64,000 bases of DNA from Goekera deserti (GTDB lineage: Bacteria > Actinomycetota > Actinomycetes > Mycobacteriales > Geodermatophilaceae): the NCBI RefSeq assembly GCF_010685995.1, contig NZ_JAAGWK010000035.1, positions 1 to 64,000 of the forward strand, read 5' to 3'. Every line of letters starts with the position of its first letter. Positions within the stretch are counted from its first letter, which is position 1. Shown in pieces: positions 16,914-42,799 of the stretch. The translations under genes and the position numbers were made by a program. The notes under the pieces are model-generated. The model saw only the letters and a program-made list of their open reading frames with translations. It ran no database searches and had not been told where the DNA came from.

Positions 16914-18823
16914 GACCGGCGCTGCCGGGGCAGCACGGCCCGCACCCGGGTGCCGGGCGAGCCGTCGGTGACCTCGCAGTGCCCGCCGAGCTCCGCGGCC
17001 CGCTCCCGCATGGAGGCCAGGCCCACCCCGGCGGTCCGCTGCTCGGGCAGCCCCACCCCGTCGTCCACCACGTCGACCTCCACGTCGTCGTCCCTCCCGG
17101 CCACCCGCACCAGCACCTGCCCCGCCCGGGCGTGCCGGACCGCGTTGTGCACCGCCTCCTGCGCGATGCGGAAGGCGGCCACCTCCACGGCGGCCGGCAG
17201 GTCGTCCAGGTCGCCGACCCCCTCGACCACCACCCGCGGGCCGCCCTCGGCGCCCACCGGCACCCCGGCGCGCAGCGCGCCGACCAGGCCGAGGTCGTCC
17301 AGCGCCGGCGGGCGCAGCCCGTGCACCAGCCGGCGGACGTCGACCACCGCGTCGGCGGCGTGCGTGCTGGCCGCCGTCACCAGCACCCCGGCGCGCTCAC
17401 CGTCGCCCCGGCGCAGCGCCGAGGCCGCCGTGTCCAGGGTCATCACCACCGCCGACAGCTGCGGGCCCAGCCCGTCGTGCAGGTCGCGGCGCAGCCGGCG
17501 GCGCTCCTCCTCCCGGGCCTCCAGCAGCCGTTCCCGGGAGTCGCGCAGCTCGGCGGCGGCGCGCTCGGCGTAGGCGGCGGCCGCGAGCCGGCCGGCCAGG
17601 TCGTGCACCAGCCGCACGTCGGCCGGGTGCCGGCGCCGCCCGGCGACCAGCAGCGTGCCGACCGGCTCGCCGTGCAGCACCAGCGGGATGCGCTCGGCGT
17701 CGTCGTCGACCTCGCCGGCCTGCTCCCGGGTGCGGACGGCGCCCGGCGGCCCGGCCTCGACGGCGACGCCGGCCAGCCCGAGGCCACCGGCGACGACGGC
17801 GGCCCCCTCGCGCAGCGCCTCCCGCGGTGTGCCGGCCGACCGCAGCGCCTCGTCGAGCCGGGTGAGCAGCGCGTACGGGTCCCGCCGGCCGCCGTACAGC
17901 AGCCGCTCGACGCCGCGCTCCACCTGCGTGCGGGCCGGCTGGAACGCCAGCGCGACGGCGAAGGCGGCCACGAACGGGGCCGCGCCGCTGCGGGCGCCCA
18001 GCAGCGCCCCGGCCCAGCCGGCGACCGCGGCGTACACCAGCGCGGTGAGCCCGAACAGCACCGCGCCGGCCAGCGTGCGGGCCACCAGGGCGTCGATCGC
18101 GTAGAGCCGGTAGCGCAGCGCGGCGACCGCCAGCCCGGCCGGGACGGCGAGCACGCCGAGCGCCACACCCCACCACGGCGCGAGGAACGTGGTGGCGACG
18201 GCGATCGCCACGCCGTAGCCGGCCCAGCCGAGCTGGCGTCGCTCGTCCGGCCCGCCGCGGCGCACCCGCACGCCCAGCGAGACCAGCGCGGTGAGCACGC
18301 CCACGGCGAGCACCGGGGCGAAGCCGGGCACCGCGAACGGCGTCCGGGGTCCGCCGGGCAGGGCCAGGCCGGCCGTCGTCACGAGCGTGAGCGCCAGCGC
18401 CGCAGCCCAGGGCAGCCGCCAGCGGCCGGGCAGCGGGACGCCGAACGGAAGCACCTGGGGCAGCACGGTGGTGACCAGCAGGAAGGCCGGCACCCAGGCC
18501 CACGAGCGCAGCCAGTCCGCCGCGGTCGCGCCGCCGGTCGCCGTCGACCAGGAGGTGGCCAGCACGTACGCCGCCGCGGAGAGCCCCACGGCCAGCAGCA
18601 GCCAGCCCAGCCGGCGTGCGGCCGGCACCCCGACGAGCAGGGCACCCACCAGGCCGAACGACGGCGCGAGCACCGGCTCCGGGGTGTCGAACAGCTGCCG
18701 GAGCCAGTCGCCGCCGGTCAGCAGTGGCAGGACCAGCGCGACCGCCGTCGCCAGGCAGGCGACGGCGGCCAGCAGCCGGGCCACCGGGACGGCGGCCCGG
18801 CTGCTGGACGGGCGGGAGCGCAT
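16910..18823 (-). CDS. NarL-type sensor histidine kinase
   Basis: This 637-residue kinase has an N-terminal membrane region of about eight helices (residues 10-290), a GAF-like linker (about 330-430), a HisKA_3 domain with EEERRRLRRDLHDGLGPQLS (phospho-acceptor His near 458) and a HATPase domain with AFRIAQEAVHNAVRHA (N-box) and DDGVGLPE / GVGLASMRERAAELGG (G-boxes). There is no periplasmic ligand domain, so it probably senses a membrane or intramembrane signal. It is transcribed ahead of its response regulator. Confidence 0.94.
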   Translation of the reverse strand: MRSRPSSSRAAVPVARLLAAVACLATAVALVLPLLTGGDWLRQLFDTPEPVLAPSFGLVGALLVGVPAARRLGWLLLAVGLSAAAYVLATSWSTATGGATAADWLRSWAWVPAFLLVTTVLPQVLPFGVPLPGRWRLPWAAALALTLVTTAGLALPGGPRTPFAVPGFAPVLAVGVLTALVSLGVRVRRGGPDERRQLGWAGYGVAIAVATTFLAPWWGVALGVLAVPAGLAVAALRYRLYAIDALVARTLAGAVLFGLTALVYAAVAGWAGALLGARSGAAPFVAAFAVALAFQPARTQVERGVERLLYGGRRDPYALLTRLDEALRSAGTPREALREGAAVVAGGLGLAGVAVEAGPPGAVRTREQAGEVDDDAERIPLVLHGEPVGTLLVAGRRRHPADVRLVHDLAGRLAAAAYAERAAAELRDSRERLLEAREEERRRLRRDLHDGLGPQLSAVVMTLDTAASALRRGDGERAGVLVTAASTHAADAVVDVRRLVHGLRPPALDDLGLVGALRAGVPVGAEGGPRVVVEGVGDLDDLPAAVEVAAFRIAQEAVHNAVRHARAGQVLVRVAGRDDDVEVDVVDDGVGLPEQRTAGVGLASMRERAAELGGHCEVTDGSPGTRVRAVLPRQRRS

Positions 18824-22150: not shown

Positions 22151-24507
<2,357 letters not shown>

Positions 24508-24523: not shown

Positions 24524-24614
24524 CGTTGATCAGCTGAGCTGATCAACGTCCGGCCGAGCTCACCAACGTTGGTGAGCCAGGCCGTACGGTGATCAGCTCA
24601 GCTGATCACCGTAC
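24524..24614. repeat. Three-palindrome cassette, copy 1
   Basis: Three perfect palindromes lie in 91 bp between the convergent serC and ATP-grasp genes. First, CGTTGATCAGCT (24524-24535) with its inverse at 24537-24548 and a 1-nt centre. Second, the 20-bp GCTCACCAACGTTGGTGAGC (24558-24577). Third, GTACGGTGATCAGCT (24584-24598) with its inverse at 24600-24614. The outer two share GATCAGCTNAGCTGATC. A related copy is at 41852-41938. A likely role is bidirectional termination or protein binding. Confidence 0.9.
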
Positions 24615-24636: not shown

Positions 24637-26124
24637 TCAGCCGATCAGCCAGGTGTCCTTGCTGCCGCCGCCGCGGGAGCTGTTGACCACCATCGAGCCG
24701 CGGGCGAGGGCGACCCGGGTGAGCGGGGCGGGCAGCACCCGCGTGGTGGCGCCGGCGACGGCGAAGACCCGCAGGTCGACGTGCCGGGGCACCAGCTCGC
24801 CGTCGACGCAGGTGGGGGCGGTGGAGAAGTCGACCGGCTCCTGGGCCACGAAGCGGTGCGGCGCGCGCAGCACGTCGGCGCGCAGCTGCGCCAGCTGCGC
24901 GGCGCTGCAGGTGGACCCGAAGACCACGCCCTGCCCGCCGTACCCGTCGACCGGCTTGACCACCAGCTCGTGCAGCCGGTCGACGACGGCGGCCAGGTCG
25001 TCGTCGTCGGCCAGCACCCAGGTGGGCACGGTGGCCAGCACCGGCTCCTCGCCCAGGTAGAAACGGATCATCTCCGGCACGTAGCAGTAGGTGGCCTTGT
25101 CGTCCGCGACGCCGTTGCCGGGCACGTTCGCCACCGCCAGCCGGCCGGCCCGCACCGCCTCGCGCAGCAGCGTGTCCAGGAGCATGCCGCTGGGCGTCAC
25201 GTGCGCGGCGAGGTCGTCGTCGTCGAAGCGCCGGTAGAAGACGTCGACCGGCACCCGCTCGCCGTCGACCTCCACCGCCACCCCGCCGTCGGGGGTGGGC
25301 CAGAGCACGTCCGGGGTGGCGATCGGGACGCCCATCGCCTCGGCCAGCAGGCGGTGCTCGAACCAGGCGGTGTTCATCGCGCCGTCGGTCAGCAGGGCCA
25401 CCTGCGGGCTGCCCGCGCACCCGGCGGGGGCGGCCTCGGTGAGCGCCTCGTGCAGCACGACCGCGGCACCGGCCGGGTCGGTCAGCGCCGCGCCCCGGCC
25501 CTCGGCGAACAGCTGCGGCAGGGCCGCGCGGCTGCTCTGCCGGTTGGCCATCGCGTAGCCGATGCCCGAGGGCACCCGCAGGTTGTCCTCCAGCACCACC
25601 CACCGGCCGCCGGGCCCGCGCAGCAGGTCCAGGCCGGCCACGGTGACCCGCTGCTGCCCGGCGGCCGCGAACGAGACCGCGCCGGGCCGCCAGCCGGGGC
25701 TGTCGGCCACCACCCACTCCGGGAGCACGCCGGCGCGCACGACCTCCGGCTGCTTCTCCACGTCGCTGCGCCGGCGGCCGGCGGGCCGGTACACGTCGGC
25801 CAGGAAGGCGTTGAGCGCGCGCGTGCGCTGCTCGACCCCGGCGGACAGGTGCGCCCAGTCGGCCGCCGGGACCACCCGCGGCACCGGGCACATCGGGAAG
25901 GTGGTCTCCTCGAAGGTGCCGTCGGTGAAGGAGCCGAAGACCACGCCCCGGGCGACCCGTTGCCGATCGACCTCCGCGGCAGCAGCCGCCAGGCGCTCCG
26001 GGCCCAGGCCGTCGAGCACCGGGCCGACCTCGCCGTACCCGGGGAGCAGACGTCCCCCGCCGTCCACCGCCTCGTCGACGGCCGACCCGGCATACCCGGC
26101 GAAGACGCTGAGTGCGTCGGTCAT
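24637..26124 (-). CDS. Circularly permuted ATP-grasp protein (DUF404/DUF407 type)
   Basis: This 495-residue protein belongs to the circularly permuted ATP-grasp type 2 family. Segments seen are RGVVFGSFTDGTFEETTFPMCPVPR near 60-85, RWVVLEDNLRVPSGIGYAMANR (about 164-185), YRRFDDDDL, ANVPGNGVADDKATYCYVPEMI (about 323-344) and VKPVDGYGGQGVVFG (about 390-404), ending SRGGGSKDTWLIG. ATP-grasp enzymes join carboxylates to amines via acyl-phosphates, so a peptide or amide ligase is likely. It follows the S9 peptidase gene by 19 bp, with GAGGAGG before ATG 26124. The usual alpha-E and transglutaminase partners are absent. Confidence 0.9.
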   Translation of the reverse strand: MTDALSVFAGYAGSAVDEAVDGGGRLLPGYGEVGPVLDGLGPERLAAAAAEVDRQRVARGVVFGSFTDGTFEETTFPMCPVPRVVPAADWAHLSAGVEQRTRALNAFLADVYRPAGRRRSDVEKQPEVVRAGVLPEWVVADSPGWRPGAVSFAAAGQQRVTVAGLDLLRGPGGRWVVLEDNLRVPSGIGYAMANRQSSRAALPQLFAEGRGAALTDPAGAAVVLHEALTEAAPAGCAGSPQVALLTDGAMNTAWFEHRLLAEAMGVPIATPDVLWPTPDGGVAVEVDGERVPVDVFYRRFDDDDLAAHVTPSGMLLDTLLREAVRAGRLAVANVPGNGVADDKATYCYVPEMIRFYLGEEPVLATVPTWVLADDDDLAAVVDRLHELVVKPVDGYGGQGVVFGSTCSAAQLAQLRADVLRAPHRFVAQEPVDFSTAPTCVDGELVPRHVDLRVFAVAGATTRVLPAPLTRVALARGSMVVNSSRGGGSKDTWLIG

Positions 26125-38517: not shown

Positions 38518-39189
38518 GACGACGGCCCCGCCGTCGAGGTGCGGGGCGCGGTGAAGCGGTTCACCCGGGGGGCGGAGACGGTGACCGCGCTGGACGGCGT
38601 GGACCTGCGGGTGCGGGCCGGTGAGTTCGTGGCGCTGGTCGGGCCGTCGGGCTCGGGCAAGAGCACGCTGCTGGCGCTGCTGTGCGGGTGGGAGACCGCC
38701 GACGCCGGCAGCGTCACCTACGGCGGCGCGCTGGCCGGGCGGCGCGCGGACACCTTCGGCTGGCCGGAGCTGGCGCTGGTGCCTCAGGCCCTCGGGCTGC
38801 TCGCCGACCTCGACCTGGCCGACAACGTGCTGCTGCCGGCCCGGCTGACCGGGGCGCTGGCCGCCTCGCGGCCGCGCGCGGGCGAGCTGATGGAGGCCTT
38901 CGGCATCGACCACCTCGCCGCTCGCGCCCCGCACCAGGCCTCGCTCGGGGAGCAGCAGCGGGTCGCCGTCGCCCGGGCGCTGCTGCTCGGCCCGGCCGTG
39001 CTGCTGGCCGACGAGCCGACGGCCCACCAGGACCGCGGTCACGCCGACCTGCTGCTCGACGAGGTGGTGGGCCAGGCCCGGGCGGGCTCGGCGGTGCTGG
39101 TGGCCACGCACGACGAGGTCGCCTGGGGCCGGGCCGACCGGGTGCTGTCGATGCGCGACGGCCGGCTCACCGAGGGGGCGCCGCGATGA
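38506..39189 (+). CDS. ABC transporter ATP-binding protein, second
   Basis: This 227-residue ATPase has Walker A GPSGSGKSTL (about 46-55), Walker B VLLADEPTAHQD and H-loop VATHDEVAW. The signature is unusual: ASLGEQQRVAVARAL in place of LSGGQQ, and the D-loop is AHQD instead of SALD. Together with the first ATPase it could form an asymmetric nucleotide-binding pair serving one large permease. It overlaps the permease gene by 4 bp (ATGA). Confidence 0.9.
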   Translation: MTGPDDGPAVEVRGAVKRFTRGAETVTALDGVDLRVRAGEFVALVGPSGSGKSTLLALLCGWETADAGSVTYGGALAGRRADTFGWPELALVPQALGLLADLDLADNVLLPARLTGALAASRPRAGELMEAFGIDHLAARAPHQASLGEQQRVAVARALLLGPAVLLADEPTAHQDRGHADLLLDEVVGQARAGSAVLVATHDEVAWGRADRVLSMRDGRLTEGAPR

Positions 39190-41837
39190 GCCGGCCCCCG
39201 CTCTGGCGGCTGGCGCCCTGGACCCGCGCGCCGCTGCTGGGCCTGCGCCAGCCGGCGGCCGTGCTGGCGGTCCTGGTCACCTCGGCCATCCTGGCCTGCG
39301 CGGCCGCCTCCGCCCCGCTGTTCCTCTCCTCCGCCCGGTCGGCCGCGCTGCAGCAGCAACTGGCGCAGGGCTGCGCCGAGGTGGGCTGGGGCCAGATCGG
39401 GGTGGACAGCGGCCCACCGGTCTCCCAGGCAGCGGACGCCGACCTCGCCGCCGCCTGGGCAGCCGAGGGTCGCGTCAGCGTGCCGGCCCTCGCCTTCGCC
39501 CGGATCGGTACCTCGGACGTGGCGCCGGGCGCGCTGCCGGTGGTCGACGCGCGGGGCGAGCCGCTGTCACTGCCCGCCGGGCTGCTGTACCGGCCCGGCG
39601 CGGCGGAGAACATCGAGGTCGTCGATTCGGTCGACGGCGCGGGCGTGTGGGTGCCGCAGACCTACGCCGAGGCGAGCGGCCTGGCGCCGGGCGACGAGGT
39701 GGAGGTGGCCGGCGTCCCGGTGCGGGTGGTCGGTGTCTACACCGACCTGTTCCGGGTGCCCGAGAGCACCTACTGGTGCGACTACCGCCAGCTGTACGCC
39801 AACGACGCCTCGGGCAACACCGCCCCGCCGGCCCTGCTGCTGGCCACCGACGAGGCCACCTTCTACGCCGTCACCGCGGGCACCGGTGCCGCCCGCCTGG
39901 CCCAGGTGCCGGTCGCGGCCGACGAGCTGTCGGTCACCGACGCGCGGGAGCTGCTCGCCGCCCAGGCGCGGGCGCAGGGCCGCGTGCCGACCCCGCCGCC
40001 GGCGACCGGAGCGTTCGTGCCCAACGAGCGGCTGCCCGGCGTCGTCGCGCGGGCCGAGCTGATCGAGGCAGGGCTGCGCGGGCCGGTCGTGCCGGTCGCG
40101 GTCGCCGGCGGCCTGCTGGCGCTGGTGCTCGTCGCCGCGGCCGGCAGCTTCTGGGCCGACCGGCGGGCCACCGAGGTGCGGCTGCTCGCCGCCCGCGGCG
40201 TGGGTCCGCTGCCGCTGGCCGGCAAGGCCGCGCTGGAGCTGGCGCTGCCGGCGCTGGCCGGGGCCGCGCTCGGCTGGACCGTGGCCCGCGGGCTGATCGC
40301 CGTGCTGGGCCCGGCCGACGACCTCGACCCCGCCGCCACCACCGCGGCGCTGTGGGCCGGCGCGGCCGCCTTCGTGGTCGGCCTGGGCTGCGCGGCCGGC
40401 GTCGCCGGGCTGCGCGCTCGGGGCACCGCCGAGCGCCCGCTGGGCGCGGCCGCCCGCTGGCCCTCGCGGGTGCCGTGGGAGCTGGCGCTGCTGGTCGCGG
40501 CCGGCTGGTGCTGGGTGCTGCTGCGCGGCCAGGACGCCGTCCGCCAGGACGCCGGGGTCGCGCAGGTCAACGGCCTGCTGGTGGCCTTCCCGCTGCTGGC
40601 CATCGCCGGCTCCGCGGTGCTGCTGGCCCGGCTGCTCAGCGCACTGCTGCCCCGGCTGCGGCGCTGGGCCGGGCGACGCTCCCCCGCGGTGTTCCTCGCC
40701 GTCAACCGGCTCGCCGCCGCCCGGCTGGCCACCGCCACGCTGCTGGTGGCGGTGACGCTGCCGGTCGCCGTCCTGGGGTACACCGCGACGCTCACCGAGA
40801 GCTCGCAGACCACGCTGGACGCCAAGGTCGGAGTACAGATCGGCACCACCGGGCGGGCGGTCACCTCGGTGTCCCGGTTCGACCCCACACCCGCGATCGA
40901 CGCCGTCGGCACCTACGTGGTGCGCTACGGCGACGGCAGCGTGCCGGCCCCGGCCGGGCAGGACGGCGACAGCGCCGGCCGGGTCGACGTCCAGGTGCTC
41001 GCGGTCGACCCCGACACGTTCGCCCGCACCGCCTTCTGGGACGACTCCTTCGCCGACGCCCCGCTGCCGGAGCTCCTGGAGGCCCTGCGCGGGCCGGACG
41101 TCGACGGCCGCCCGCCGGTGGTCGCCGCCGGGCTGGCGCCGGGGCCGGCCGACCTGGAGCTGGGCAGTCTCGCCGTCCCGGTGCAGGTGGTGGCGGAGGC
41201 CCGGGTGCTGCCGGGTCGGCGCACGGCCGACCCGGTGCTGCTGGTCGACGCCAGCCGGCTGCCCGACGTCGACCGCAGCGCCCGGGCCGACCGCACCGCC
41301 GAGATCTGGACCGAGGGCCCCACCGCCCCGGCCGTCGAGGCGCTCACCGCCGCCGGCGGCGTCCCGCTGCGGGTGGTGGACCAGGCGCTGGTGCTGAACA
41401 CGGCCAACTTCCTGGGCATCACCTGGACCTTCGGCTACCTGTCGGCCCTCGCGGTCTTCGTCGGGGTCATCGCCGCCGGCGGGCTGCTGCTGTACCTGGA
41501 GGCGCGCAGCCGCAGCCGGGTGTCCGGGTACGTGATGGCCCGGCGGCTGGGCCTGACCCGCGCGGCGCACCTGCGCTCACTGCTGCTGGAGCTGGGCGGC
41601 GTCGCCGTCGCCGGGCTGGTGCTGGGCACCCTGCTCGCCGCCGGCGCCGTCGCCGTGGTCTACCGGCGGCTGGACGTCGACCTGATCCGCCCGCCGACCC
41701 CGCTGCTGGACGTGCCCTGGACCGCCGGGCTGGTCACCGCCGTCCTGGCGCTGGTGCTCGCCGGCCTGGCCGCCCTCTACGCCCAGCACGCCGCCGACCG
41801 CGCCGACCCCGCCTCCGTCCTCCGCGAGGACGCCTGA
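39186..41837 (+). CDS. Large FtsX-type ABC transporter permease
   Basis: This 883-residue protein has an N-terminal helix (about 25-48), a long extracytoplasmic region (about 50-300), a helical block (about 300-535), a second extracytoplasmic region (about 540-755) and a C-terminal block of three helices. The duplicated layout is typical of MacB/LolCDE-like permeases that handle lipids or extract substrates from the membrane. Two ATPases precede it in an operon with 4-bp overlaps. The substrate is not evident. It is followed by a three-palindrome cassette. Confidence 0.88.
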   Translation: MSRPPLWRLAPWTRAPLLGLRQPAAVLAVLVTSAILACAAASAPLFLSSARSAALQQQLAQGCAEVGWGQIGVDSGPPVSQAADADLAAAWAAEGRVSVPALAFARIGTSDVAPGALPVVDARGEPLSLPAGLLYRPGAAENIEVVDSVDGAGVWVPQTYAEASGLAPGDEVEVAGVPVRVVGVYTDLFRVPESTYWCDYRQLYANDASGNTAPPALLLATDEATFYAVTAGTGAARLAQVPVAADELSVTDARELLAAQARAQGRVPTPPPATGAFVPNERLPGVVARAELIEAGLRGPVVPVAVAGGLLALVLVAAAGSFWADRRATEVRLLAARGVGPLPLAGKAALELALPALAGAALGWTVARGLIAVLGPADDLDPAATTAALWAGAAAFVVGLGCAAGVAGLRARGTAERPLGAAARWPSRVPWELALLVAAGWCWVLLRGQDAVRQDAGVAQVNGLLVAFPLLAIAGSAVLLARLLSALLPRLRRWAGRRSPAVFLAVNRLAAARLATATLLVAVTLPVAVLGYTATLTESSQTTLDAKVGVQIGTTGRAVTSVSRFDPTPAIDAVGTYVVRYGDGSVPAPAGQDGDSAGRVDVQVLAVDPDTFARTAFWDDSFADAPLPELLEALRGPDVDGRPPVVAAGLAPGPADLELGSLAVPVQVVAEARVLPGRRTADPVLLVDASRLPDVDRSARADRTAEIWTEGPTAPAVEALTAAGGVPLRVVDQALVLNTANFLGITWTFGYLSALAVFVGVIAAGGLLLYLEARSRSRVSGYVMARRLGLTRAAHLRSLLLELGGVAVAGLVLGTLLAAGAVAVVYRRLDVDLIRPPTPLLDVPWTAGLVTAVLALVLAGLAALYAQHAADRADPASVLREDA

Positions 41838-41851
41838 CCCAGCCCCCCGCC

Positions 41852-41938
41852 CAGCGTTGATCAGCTCAGCTGATCAACGCTGCCCACAGTCACCAACGTT
41901 GGTGAGCTCGGCCGGACGGTGATCAGCTCAGCTGATCA
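41852..41938. repeat. Three-palindrome cassette, copy 2
   Basis: Palindromes lie in the same order and spacing as in copy 1: CAGCGTTGATCAGCT (41852-41866) with its inverse at 41868-41882; TCACCAACGTTGGTGA (41890-41905); and TGATCAGCT (41920-41928) with its inverse at 41930-41938. The cassette again lies between convergent genes, here the permease and the thioesterase. Linker sequences CGGCC.GACGGTGATCAG are also shared. Confidence 0.9.
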
Positions 41939-41956: not shown

Positions 41957-42799
41957 TCAGGGGCGGGGGGTGCGGGCCAGCTGGCGGCTGACGGCGACGA
42001 GGCGGCCGGTGGCGTCCCAGACGCGGTAGTCCTCGTCGATCCACCCGCCGGCGACCTGGCCGGTGCGCGACTCGACCAGGCACCAGCCCGGCGCCGGCAG
42101 GGCCCGGACGAGGGCCTGCAGCTGCACGGTCGGGGCCCAGCCGAGGGTGCCGGCGCCCCAGATCGACGGCGGCAGGCAGTCGAGCAGGGCGACCAGGGAC
42201 AGCGGGTCGGGGTCGCGGCCGTCGGCCAGCCGCACCCAGGCGCGCATGACGGCCTCCCCCGCCGGGGCGCCGACCGCCCAGCCGGCGGTGGCCGGGTCCA
42301 GCCGGCAGTCCAGCTCGGCCAGCAGGCCCGGCGCGACGACGCCGGGCACCGTGCTCCCGCCCGCGGCCGCGGCGGCGACGTCGATGCAGTCCTCGACGGG
42401 GGTGACCGACGGCGGGGCGGTGTCGTCGTCGGTGTAGGTCTGCGGGCCGGGGTCCAGGGTGCCGGTGGTGGCCTGGACGCTGATCACCGGGCCGGCCTCG
42501 TCGGCCAGCACGACCGTCGAGTGCGCCAGCGTGCGCCCGGTCGGGCCCGGGGTGACCTGCAGGTGGGCGGGGCCGGCCGCACCGGCGCGCAGGTAGCTCG
42601 CCGCGAGCGCCACCGCGTGCGGGTGCGGCGAGGACAGCACCGCGGCGCGGGCGGCCACCGCCAGCAGGTAGCCGCCGTTGAGGATCCCGCCGCCCACCTC
42701 CCAGCCGCCGTCGAGCTGGGCGGTCAGCCGGCCCTCGTGGTCCCGGCGCACGGCGGTGGAGCGGGCGAAACCGGAGTCCTGGTCATGGGTCTGCAGCAC
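41957..42799 (-). CDS. Acyl-CoA thioesterase-like protein (TesB hot-dog type)
   Basis: The 280-residue protein has a tandem hot-dog fold: GGWEVGGGILNGGYLLAVAARAA (about 30-52) and LRAGAAGPAHLQVTPGPTGRTL in the first domain, LSLVALLDCLPPSIWGAG and CLVESRTGQVAGGWIDEDYRVWDATGRLVAVSRQ in the second, which is the typical end of TesB-like proteins. It should hydrolyse acyl-CoA esters. GTG 42799 is the probable start; the long open frame upstream is a shadow. It is divergent from the aldo/keto reductase gene. Confidence 0.88.
   Translation of the reverse strand: MLQTHDQDSGFARSTAVRRDHEGRLTAQLDGGWEVGGGILNGGYLLAVAARAAVLSSPHPHAVALAASYLRAGAAGPAHLQVTPGPTGRTLAHSTVVLADEAGPVISVQATTGTLDPGPQTYTDDDTAPPSVTPVEDCIDVAAAAAGGSTVPGVVAPGLLAELDCRLDPATAGWAVGAPAGEAVMRAWVRLADGRDPDPLSLVALLDCLPPSIWGAGTLGWAPTVQLQALVRALPAPGWCLVESRTGQVAGGWIDEDYRVWDATGRLVAVSRQLARTPRP

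Follow-up and report, generated by a model that had tools for sequence, protein, structure and literature searches.

Three short palindromes follow one another at positions 41852-41938 of the stretch of Goekera deserti DNA analysed here, a window of 64,000 nucleotides (64 kb) from contig NZ_JAAGWK010000035.1, and a similar cassette is located at 24.5 kb of the same window. The initial annotation regarded them as two copies of one unit whose arms stay paired despite sequence change, and argued from this for selection on structure or on a dimeric binding site. The locus raises the question of what this unit is, what its arms are conserved for and how it comes to lie between these genes. The reading we favour, to which we assign a probability of roughly 0.6, is that the cassette is a non-coding dispersed repeat resembling REP sequences, located mostly at the 3' ends of genes and accompanied by a cognate gene for an AbiEi-nuclease, in a layout like that of a REPtron that does without the Y1 transposase.

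Two copies of the cassette in the window

In the 41.8-kb copy the first outer palindrome, P1 (41852..41882), has 15-bp arms around a one-base centre, the central palindrome P2 has the core TCACCAACGTTGGTGA (41890..41905, 8-bp arms), and the second outer palindrome P3, TGATCAGCTCAGCTGATCA, extends over 41920..41938 with 9-bp arms; the conserved element end ATGCTG reaches to 41944. In the 24.5-kb copy the corresponding palindromes are P1 at 24524..24548 (12-bp arms), P2 at 24558..24577 (10-bp perfect arms, beyond which imperfect arms extend further) and P3 at 24584..24614 (15-bp arms), all palindromes being given without strand. The centres of P1 and P3 are 62 bp apart in the 41.8-kb copy and 63 bp in the 24.5-kb copy. 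Both copies lie in convergent gaps. The gene of an FtsX-type permease on the forward strand (39186..41837) has its stop codon just 5' of the 41.8-kb copy, with a thioesterase-like gene on the reverse strand (41957..42799) at the far side, and a serC-like gene on the forward strand (23392..24507) ends 5' of the 24.5-kb copy, convergent with a circularly permuted ATP-grasp-like gene on the reverse strand (24637..26124). Gene functions here and below are read from the sequences.

The similarity of the two copies is far above chance. When at most three mismatches were tolerated, the outer core TGATCAGCTNAGCTGATCA was found at 4 sites in the window against 0.00 expected from shuffles, and the middle core at 2 sites against 0.09. 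The second copy, its convergent setting, its longer P1 and its shorter P3 were all correctly recognised by the initial annotation. The longer P1 of the 41.8-kb copy was gained at the expense of the outer arm of P2: the left outer arm of P2 (consensus CCGTCCGGCCGAG) is replaced, so that on this side only the P2 core is kept, the right arm GCTCGGCCGGACGG is retained up to 41919, and the inner arm of P1, AACGCTG, now complements the outer arm CAGCGTT exactly, one base having been lost.

Upstream of the serC-like gene, at 22151-23395, a citrate synthase-like gene shifts frame near 22.99 kb, with one frame running through ...AAEELGAPP and the next starting from RFEAALALENAAL... This gene is frameshifted by one base in the assembly, owing either to a sequencing error or to a broken gene.

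Anatomy of the element family

The element consists of P1 (arms GATCAG/CTGATC) and, at fixed spacing behind it, two 12-bp units that form the central inverted repeat a-a'. In the full form, to which the window copies belong, the third position is occupied by another outer palindrome; in the half form it is occupied by a direct copy of the unit, a''. The spacing is rigid: 56 half modules from several genera align without gaps across 69 columns, and, measured between centres, P1 is 31.5 bp away from P2 and 63 bp from P3. The unit a'' is present in 86 of 96 half forms (3 of 96 in a control window), in 84 of these 86 exactly 20 nt past a'. The 12-bp unit thereby sits on a 20-bp lattice, on which some arrays run on in extra 20-bp steps, with variable spacers. 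The arms occur in sequence variants which hold genome-wide and differ between genomes, and which we call dialects; nearly all half forms carrying a'' show the same dialect in a'' and a'. Full elements can fold into a single long hairpin (-58 to -71 kcal/mol, z -7.5 to -13.3). No match to a curated RNA family of Rfam at gathering score was obtained for the element, the only hits being sub-threshold chance matches to microRNA and similar hairpin models, and a known RNA family was rejected as its identity.

Copies in the genome and distribution in the family

The two copies in the window are real, but they are not the only ones. In the 4.84-Mb genome of Goekera deserti the outer core occurs at 32 sites with up to three mismatches, and grouping of outer and middle cores yields about 24 elements, all of which were read out. 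Nearly all are intergenic, with 16 in convergent gaps, 5 in tandem gaps between two forward genes, one between two reverse genes, one in a divergent gap and one at a contig edge. The full form terminates in CAGCGTT...AACGCTG, and the remaining genomic copies have a single outer palindrome. Isolated outer palindromes were absent from the genome-wide core search, barring one chance site with three mismatches. One contig (C1, G000:C1:1-138) begins about 90 bases ahead of the middle palindrome of an element, and the repeat may have caused this break in the assembly.

With a covariance model built from the P1-P2 module, matches were detected in 99 of 112 Geodermatophilaceae genomes, the numbers of matches per genome being lower bounds. 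In 394 genomes of the class Actinomycetes, no match outside the family was better than E ~1e-4. When the genomes of 84,980 named species were scanned with a DNA pattern, the matches listed came from Blastococcus, Geodermatophilus, Modestobacter, Trujillonella and Klenkia only. Deeper searches of two complete genomes gave about 36 and 25 distinct elements. Taken alone, the P1 core has between 0 and 76 sites in each genome of the family (reversed control zero); its presence is patchy even inside one genus, and several nearly complete genomes of the family lack it wholly. In a complete 5.32-Mb Geodermatophilus genome (G048) the elements are nearly absent over about 2.17-4.25 Mb, with one weak match, and spread over the rest; a complete Blastococcus genome (G009) has no comparable element-poor stretch.

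A pair of Modestobacter genomes with 97% identical flanks differs by a whole element of about 110 bp, present in one and missing in the other, where just 2 nt separate the flanking stop codons. A target duplication was not detected at this site. The difference is compatible with loss as much as with gain, and no transposition event was seen.

Position relative to genes

In the 8-kb loci of named genomes, with genes called by a simple codon-based caller, the gaps holding an element were convergent in 48 cases, tandem in 36 and divergent in 4, compared to 96, 431 and 125 gaps without element. Elements are therefore enriched in convergent gaps (odds ratio 6.95, p 2e-15), and divergent gaps are depleted. 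Half forms are oriented, with a forward gene on the P1 side in 83 cases versus 16. The stop codon usually lies 5-20 nt ahead of the P1 core, or inside it, and tandem gaps with an element have a median length of 240 bp versus 54 bp without. A stable hairpin shortly past the stop codon, as in intrinsic terminators, is thus present; a T run following the hairpin was not seen in either window copy. We also considered whether the second outer palindrome serves the second convergent gene, and rejected this as both forms are common in convergent and tandem gaps.

The syntenic comparison proposed along with the initial annotation was carried out at the orthologous serC and thioesterase gaps. Depending on the species, the gap has an element whose arms differ, a hairpin of ordinary kind, a hairpin of another repeat, or none of these. 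Vertical retention in one gap across genera is not claimed, because about 6 of 70 species have an element at the thioesterase gap, which is not clearly above random placement in convergent gaps. A second family of hairpin repeats at gene ends, GGAACGGCCCC...GGGGTCCTTC, occupies the same orthologous gaps in other species (loci L261, L262, L266, L275, L244, L241, L062 and L016). At L062, a P2 hairpin contains one of these hairpins in its loop, where it may be bordered by an ACGGC repeat on each side.

Pairing of the arms

Among the Goekera deserti copies, pairing is not maintained through sequence change. The initial annotation had expected arm differences between genomic copies to keep the pairing, and in this genome they pair no better than chance, which refutes the expectation here. 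The P1 flanks pair in 92 of 186 cases compared to 91.4 with arms dealt randomly among copies, the central arms show a pairing of 0.831 versus 0.823 under random exchange, and at positions paired in the consensus there are 124 one-sided departures versus 14 compensated ones. Permuting within a dialect still gave no excess of pairing, save for a weak tendency at the base of P2 (137/3000).

Across genera the claim holds, as there the arms change together. Pairing in other genera reached 0.563 versus 0.390 for outer P1 and 0.900 versus 0.789 for P2, with 0 of 300 permutations as high, these cross-genus counts being inflated by relatedness. In one Blastococcus genome, too, the outer arms of P1 covary (0 of 3000 permutations).

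In the same Blastococcus genome the divergence is 2% in the P1 core and the P2 arms, 11% in the P1 loop and 29-44% in the P2 apex and the P1 flanks. Within a genome it is chiefly the arm sequence that stays constant, and genomes differ from one another in dialect. Since the letters of the arms are conserved within a genome while loops and flanks drift, a sequence-specific binding site is favoured over structure alone. From the initial alternative of structure or dimeric binding site, the second option is hence strengthened, as sequence-specific binding, and the 2% versus 29-44% divergence speaks against the first as sole explanation. In P2, G-U mismatches are as rare as A-C mismatches (17 versus 20), giving no sign of selection on the RNA strand. 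A G-U excess in P1 was not taken as such a sign either, since it occurs also in elements without a nearby upstream gene.

A gene enclosed by inverted elements

Some half forms are arranged in inverted pairs, separated by 1.0-1.3 kb and with P1 on the outside. In several genomes such a pair encloses the same gene, not noted in the initial annotation, whose product begins with an AbiEi-type region and shows the conserved pattern E, D, ExDGxxK in its C-terminal part. The flanked subfamily comprises 10 distinct genes in 10 genomes, all between inverted elements, and a profile of four flanked proteins matched only element-enclosed genes among the collected loci, which in both cases had mostly been chosen for their elements. 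As a prediction, two P1 pairs about 1.2 kb apart, in Blastococcus and Geodermatophilus, were inspected and both held the gene (E 6e-135 and 1e-138).

The gene is found at no fewer than six chromosomal positions: next to an aceE-like gene, in two genomes between the gene of a proteasome activator and one for chemotaxis, next to dnaK (three genomes), and next to a pruA-like gene (two genomes), a beta-propeller gene and an amine-oxidase-like gene. Where comparable, the flanking elements carry the dialect of the host genome. One right-hand element is without P1 and one copy of the gene is apparently frameshifted. Furthermore, there is a counter-example, L154, where an inverted element pair surrounds an unrelated short-chain dehydrogenase gene.

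In three proteins the first ~190 residues matched AbiEi models of PADLOC (E 2e-22 to 1e-18), and Pfam AbiEi_4 matched several members of the subfamily. The C-terminal part is probably a restriction-endonuclease-like domain, judging from the alignment of the flanked proteins, through the motif region, with two paralogs that match PF18741 (REase) and DUF559 weakly and share part of the E, D, ExDGxxK pattern. A structure model computed from two sequences had a mean pLDDT of 37 and was set aside; PDB yielded no sequence match for the protein. None of the flanking genes was recognised as an AbiEii toxin gene, and IMG/VR yielded no viral carrier of the AbiEi-nuclease gene. AbiEi proteins bind inverted repeats, through which AbiEi antitoxins regulate their own expression (PMC7319586), and by this analogy the AbiEi-nuclease protein is a natural candidate for the reader of the element.

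A 464-kb sample of the Goekera deserti genome contains two more distant paralogs, without P1-P2 elements. One of them, a second AbiEi/DUF559-type gene on contig C45, has on either side a copy of one unrelated palindrome of about 60 bp (L406:16016-16082 and 17017-17083; CGAGTGTCGG..CAGCGGGGTCTC...GACACCCCGCTG..CGACACTCG), which was not seen elsewhere in the sample. Palindromes flanking paralog b (L406:12292-13125) and a homolog on a Tsukamurella plasmid were not above shuffles.

Explanations for the elements

In the reading as REP-like repeats with a cognate gene, the AbiEi-type domain would recognise the palindrome and the 12-bp units, which would account for the dialects, the conservation of the arms and the rigid lattice. 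Cutting at the elements by the nuclease domain could then drive their copying or homogenisation, and copies would persist where they are harmless or helpful, just past stop codons, where a strong hairpin may serve as terminator or 3'-end barrier on either strand. An explanation we consider unlikely is that the elements are plain bidirectional terminators of the Geodermatophilaceae, multiplied by recombination, with the gene, as a separate transcription unit, needing one on each side. Their place past stop codons, the convergent enrichment, the longer tandem gaps and the stable whole-element fold agree with it, several element-free orthologous serC and thioesterase gaps hold another strong hairpin, and U-poor, bidirectional terminators are reported in Streptomyces (PMC8269248). 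However, a terminator requires pairing and not identical arm letters across dozens of copies with drifting loops, one would not expect at least six unrelated positions to have inverted copies tightly around members of one gene subfamily, and one of the copies sits at the 5' end of the gene, where that gene needs none. The missing T run, the lack of an RNA-strand signal in P2 and the nearly complete family genomes devoid of any P1 core are further points against it.

Even less probable, in our view, is that a protein with a role in regulation or in chromosome organisation (nucleoid, supercoiling, insulation) binds the elements where convergent genes end, and that the gene merely has operators for its own regulation. 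The rigid 20-bp lattice with variable spacers, the genome-specific dialects and the enrichment in convergent gaps would suit such a protein, as would the autoregulation of AbiEi antitoxins via inverted repeats (PMC7319586), but the patchy presence, near relatives included, does not, and autoregulation leaves the 3' copy and tens of copies at unrelated genes unexplained. A further alternative concerns the pairing only and is compatible with the favoured reading: template-switch (quasipalindrome) repair during replication might keep the arms paired without structural selection, a process which, as described, can both generate hairpins and preserve them (PMC8794818). We regard it as doubtful, if somewhat better placed than the two preceding explanations. 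The P1 of the 41.8-kb copy does look like the product of such an event, with its inner arm rewritten as one block, a length change of one base and the outer half of the central stem, i.e. the P2 arm, lost; the rarity of G-U intermediates also fits. Template switching leaves unexplained, however, that arm sequence is conserved in dispersed copies, as well as the dialects, a'', the 3'-end placement and the gene.

Comparison with known systems

A REPtron consists of a tnpAREP gene and the REPs located close to it, and REPs are dispersed genome-wide (PMC8266576, PMC6006769), mostly downstream of genes (PMC3733652). With the REPtrons formed by REP/BIME and TnpAREP (RAYT), the present system shares short palindromes in tens of intergenic copies, mainly in convergent and tandem gaps past genes, variants specific to a genome, and one associated gene bordered by inverted copies, here in ten genomes. 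It differs in the gene, which encodes an AbiEi winged helix and a probable restriction-endonuclease-like domain instead of the Y1 HUH protein TnpAREP, and in its unit, which is larger and combines P1 with 12-bp units on the 20-bp lattice, and in which no GTAG or CGTC tag was noted. A transposase of the RAYT/IS200 type was rejected as partner, as the Goekera deserti genome contains no Y1_Tnp match. Since all REPtron traits compared match except the enzyme, the system would appear to work like REP/RAYT, yet it is no member of it.

In the cited REP literature, REP repeats are tied to one type of enzyme, the Y1 transposase (PMC8266576, PMC6006769, PMC3733652), and we found nothing relevant on such repeats in Geodermatophilaceae. 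Whether REP-like palindromes maintained and dispersed by an AbiEi winged-helix/restriction-endonuclease-like fusion, without an HUH transposase, constitute a new class of repeat spreading is in our estimation evenly balanced. If so, a second type of enzyme would possess its own repeats, the arrangement would have evolved more than once, and some AbiEi-nuclease fusions otherwise taken as stray antitoxins would gain a function. Other such fusions may disperse repeats, too; compare the Goekera deserti paralog inside unrelated palindromes. Dozens of dispersed sites shifting dialect along with one protein would offer a testable case, also for the benefit of gene-end palindromes to their hosts.

The likeness to other systems is more partial. 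The type IV AbiE antitoxins (PMC7319586, PMC3985639) share the AbiEi-matching N-terminal region and the binding of inverted repeats by AbiEi proteins; the present protein, in contrast, is fused to a probable nuclease domain, no AbiEii neighbour is recognised, and its gene is flanked on both sides by genome-dispersed repeats. Neisserial DNA uptake sequences (PMC3630211) are likewise a short genome-wide motif with species dialects and inverted pairs tied to terminators, but they number thousands compared to tens of copies here, and the present element has a composite rigid architecture and no sign of uptake. With the bidirectional U-poor terminators of Streptomyces (PMC8269248), finally, the elements have in common that they are hairpins in convergent gaps of a GC-rich actinobacterium, whereas the hairpins described here are repeats of one family, conserve their sequence and have a partner gene.
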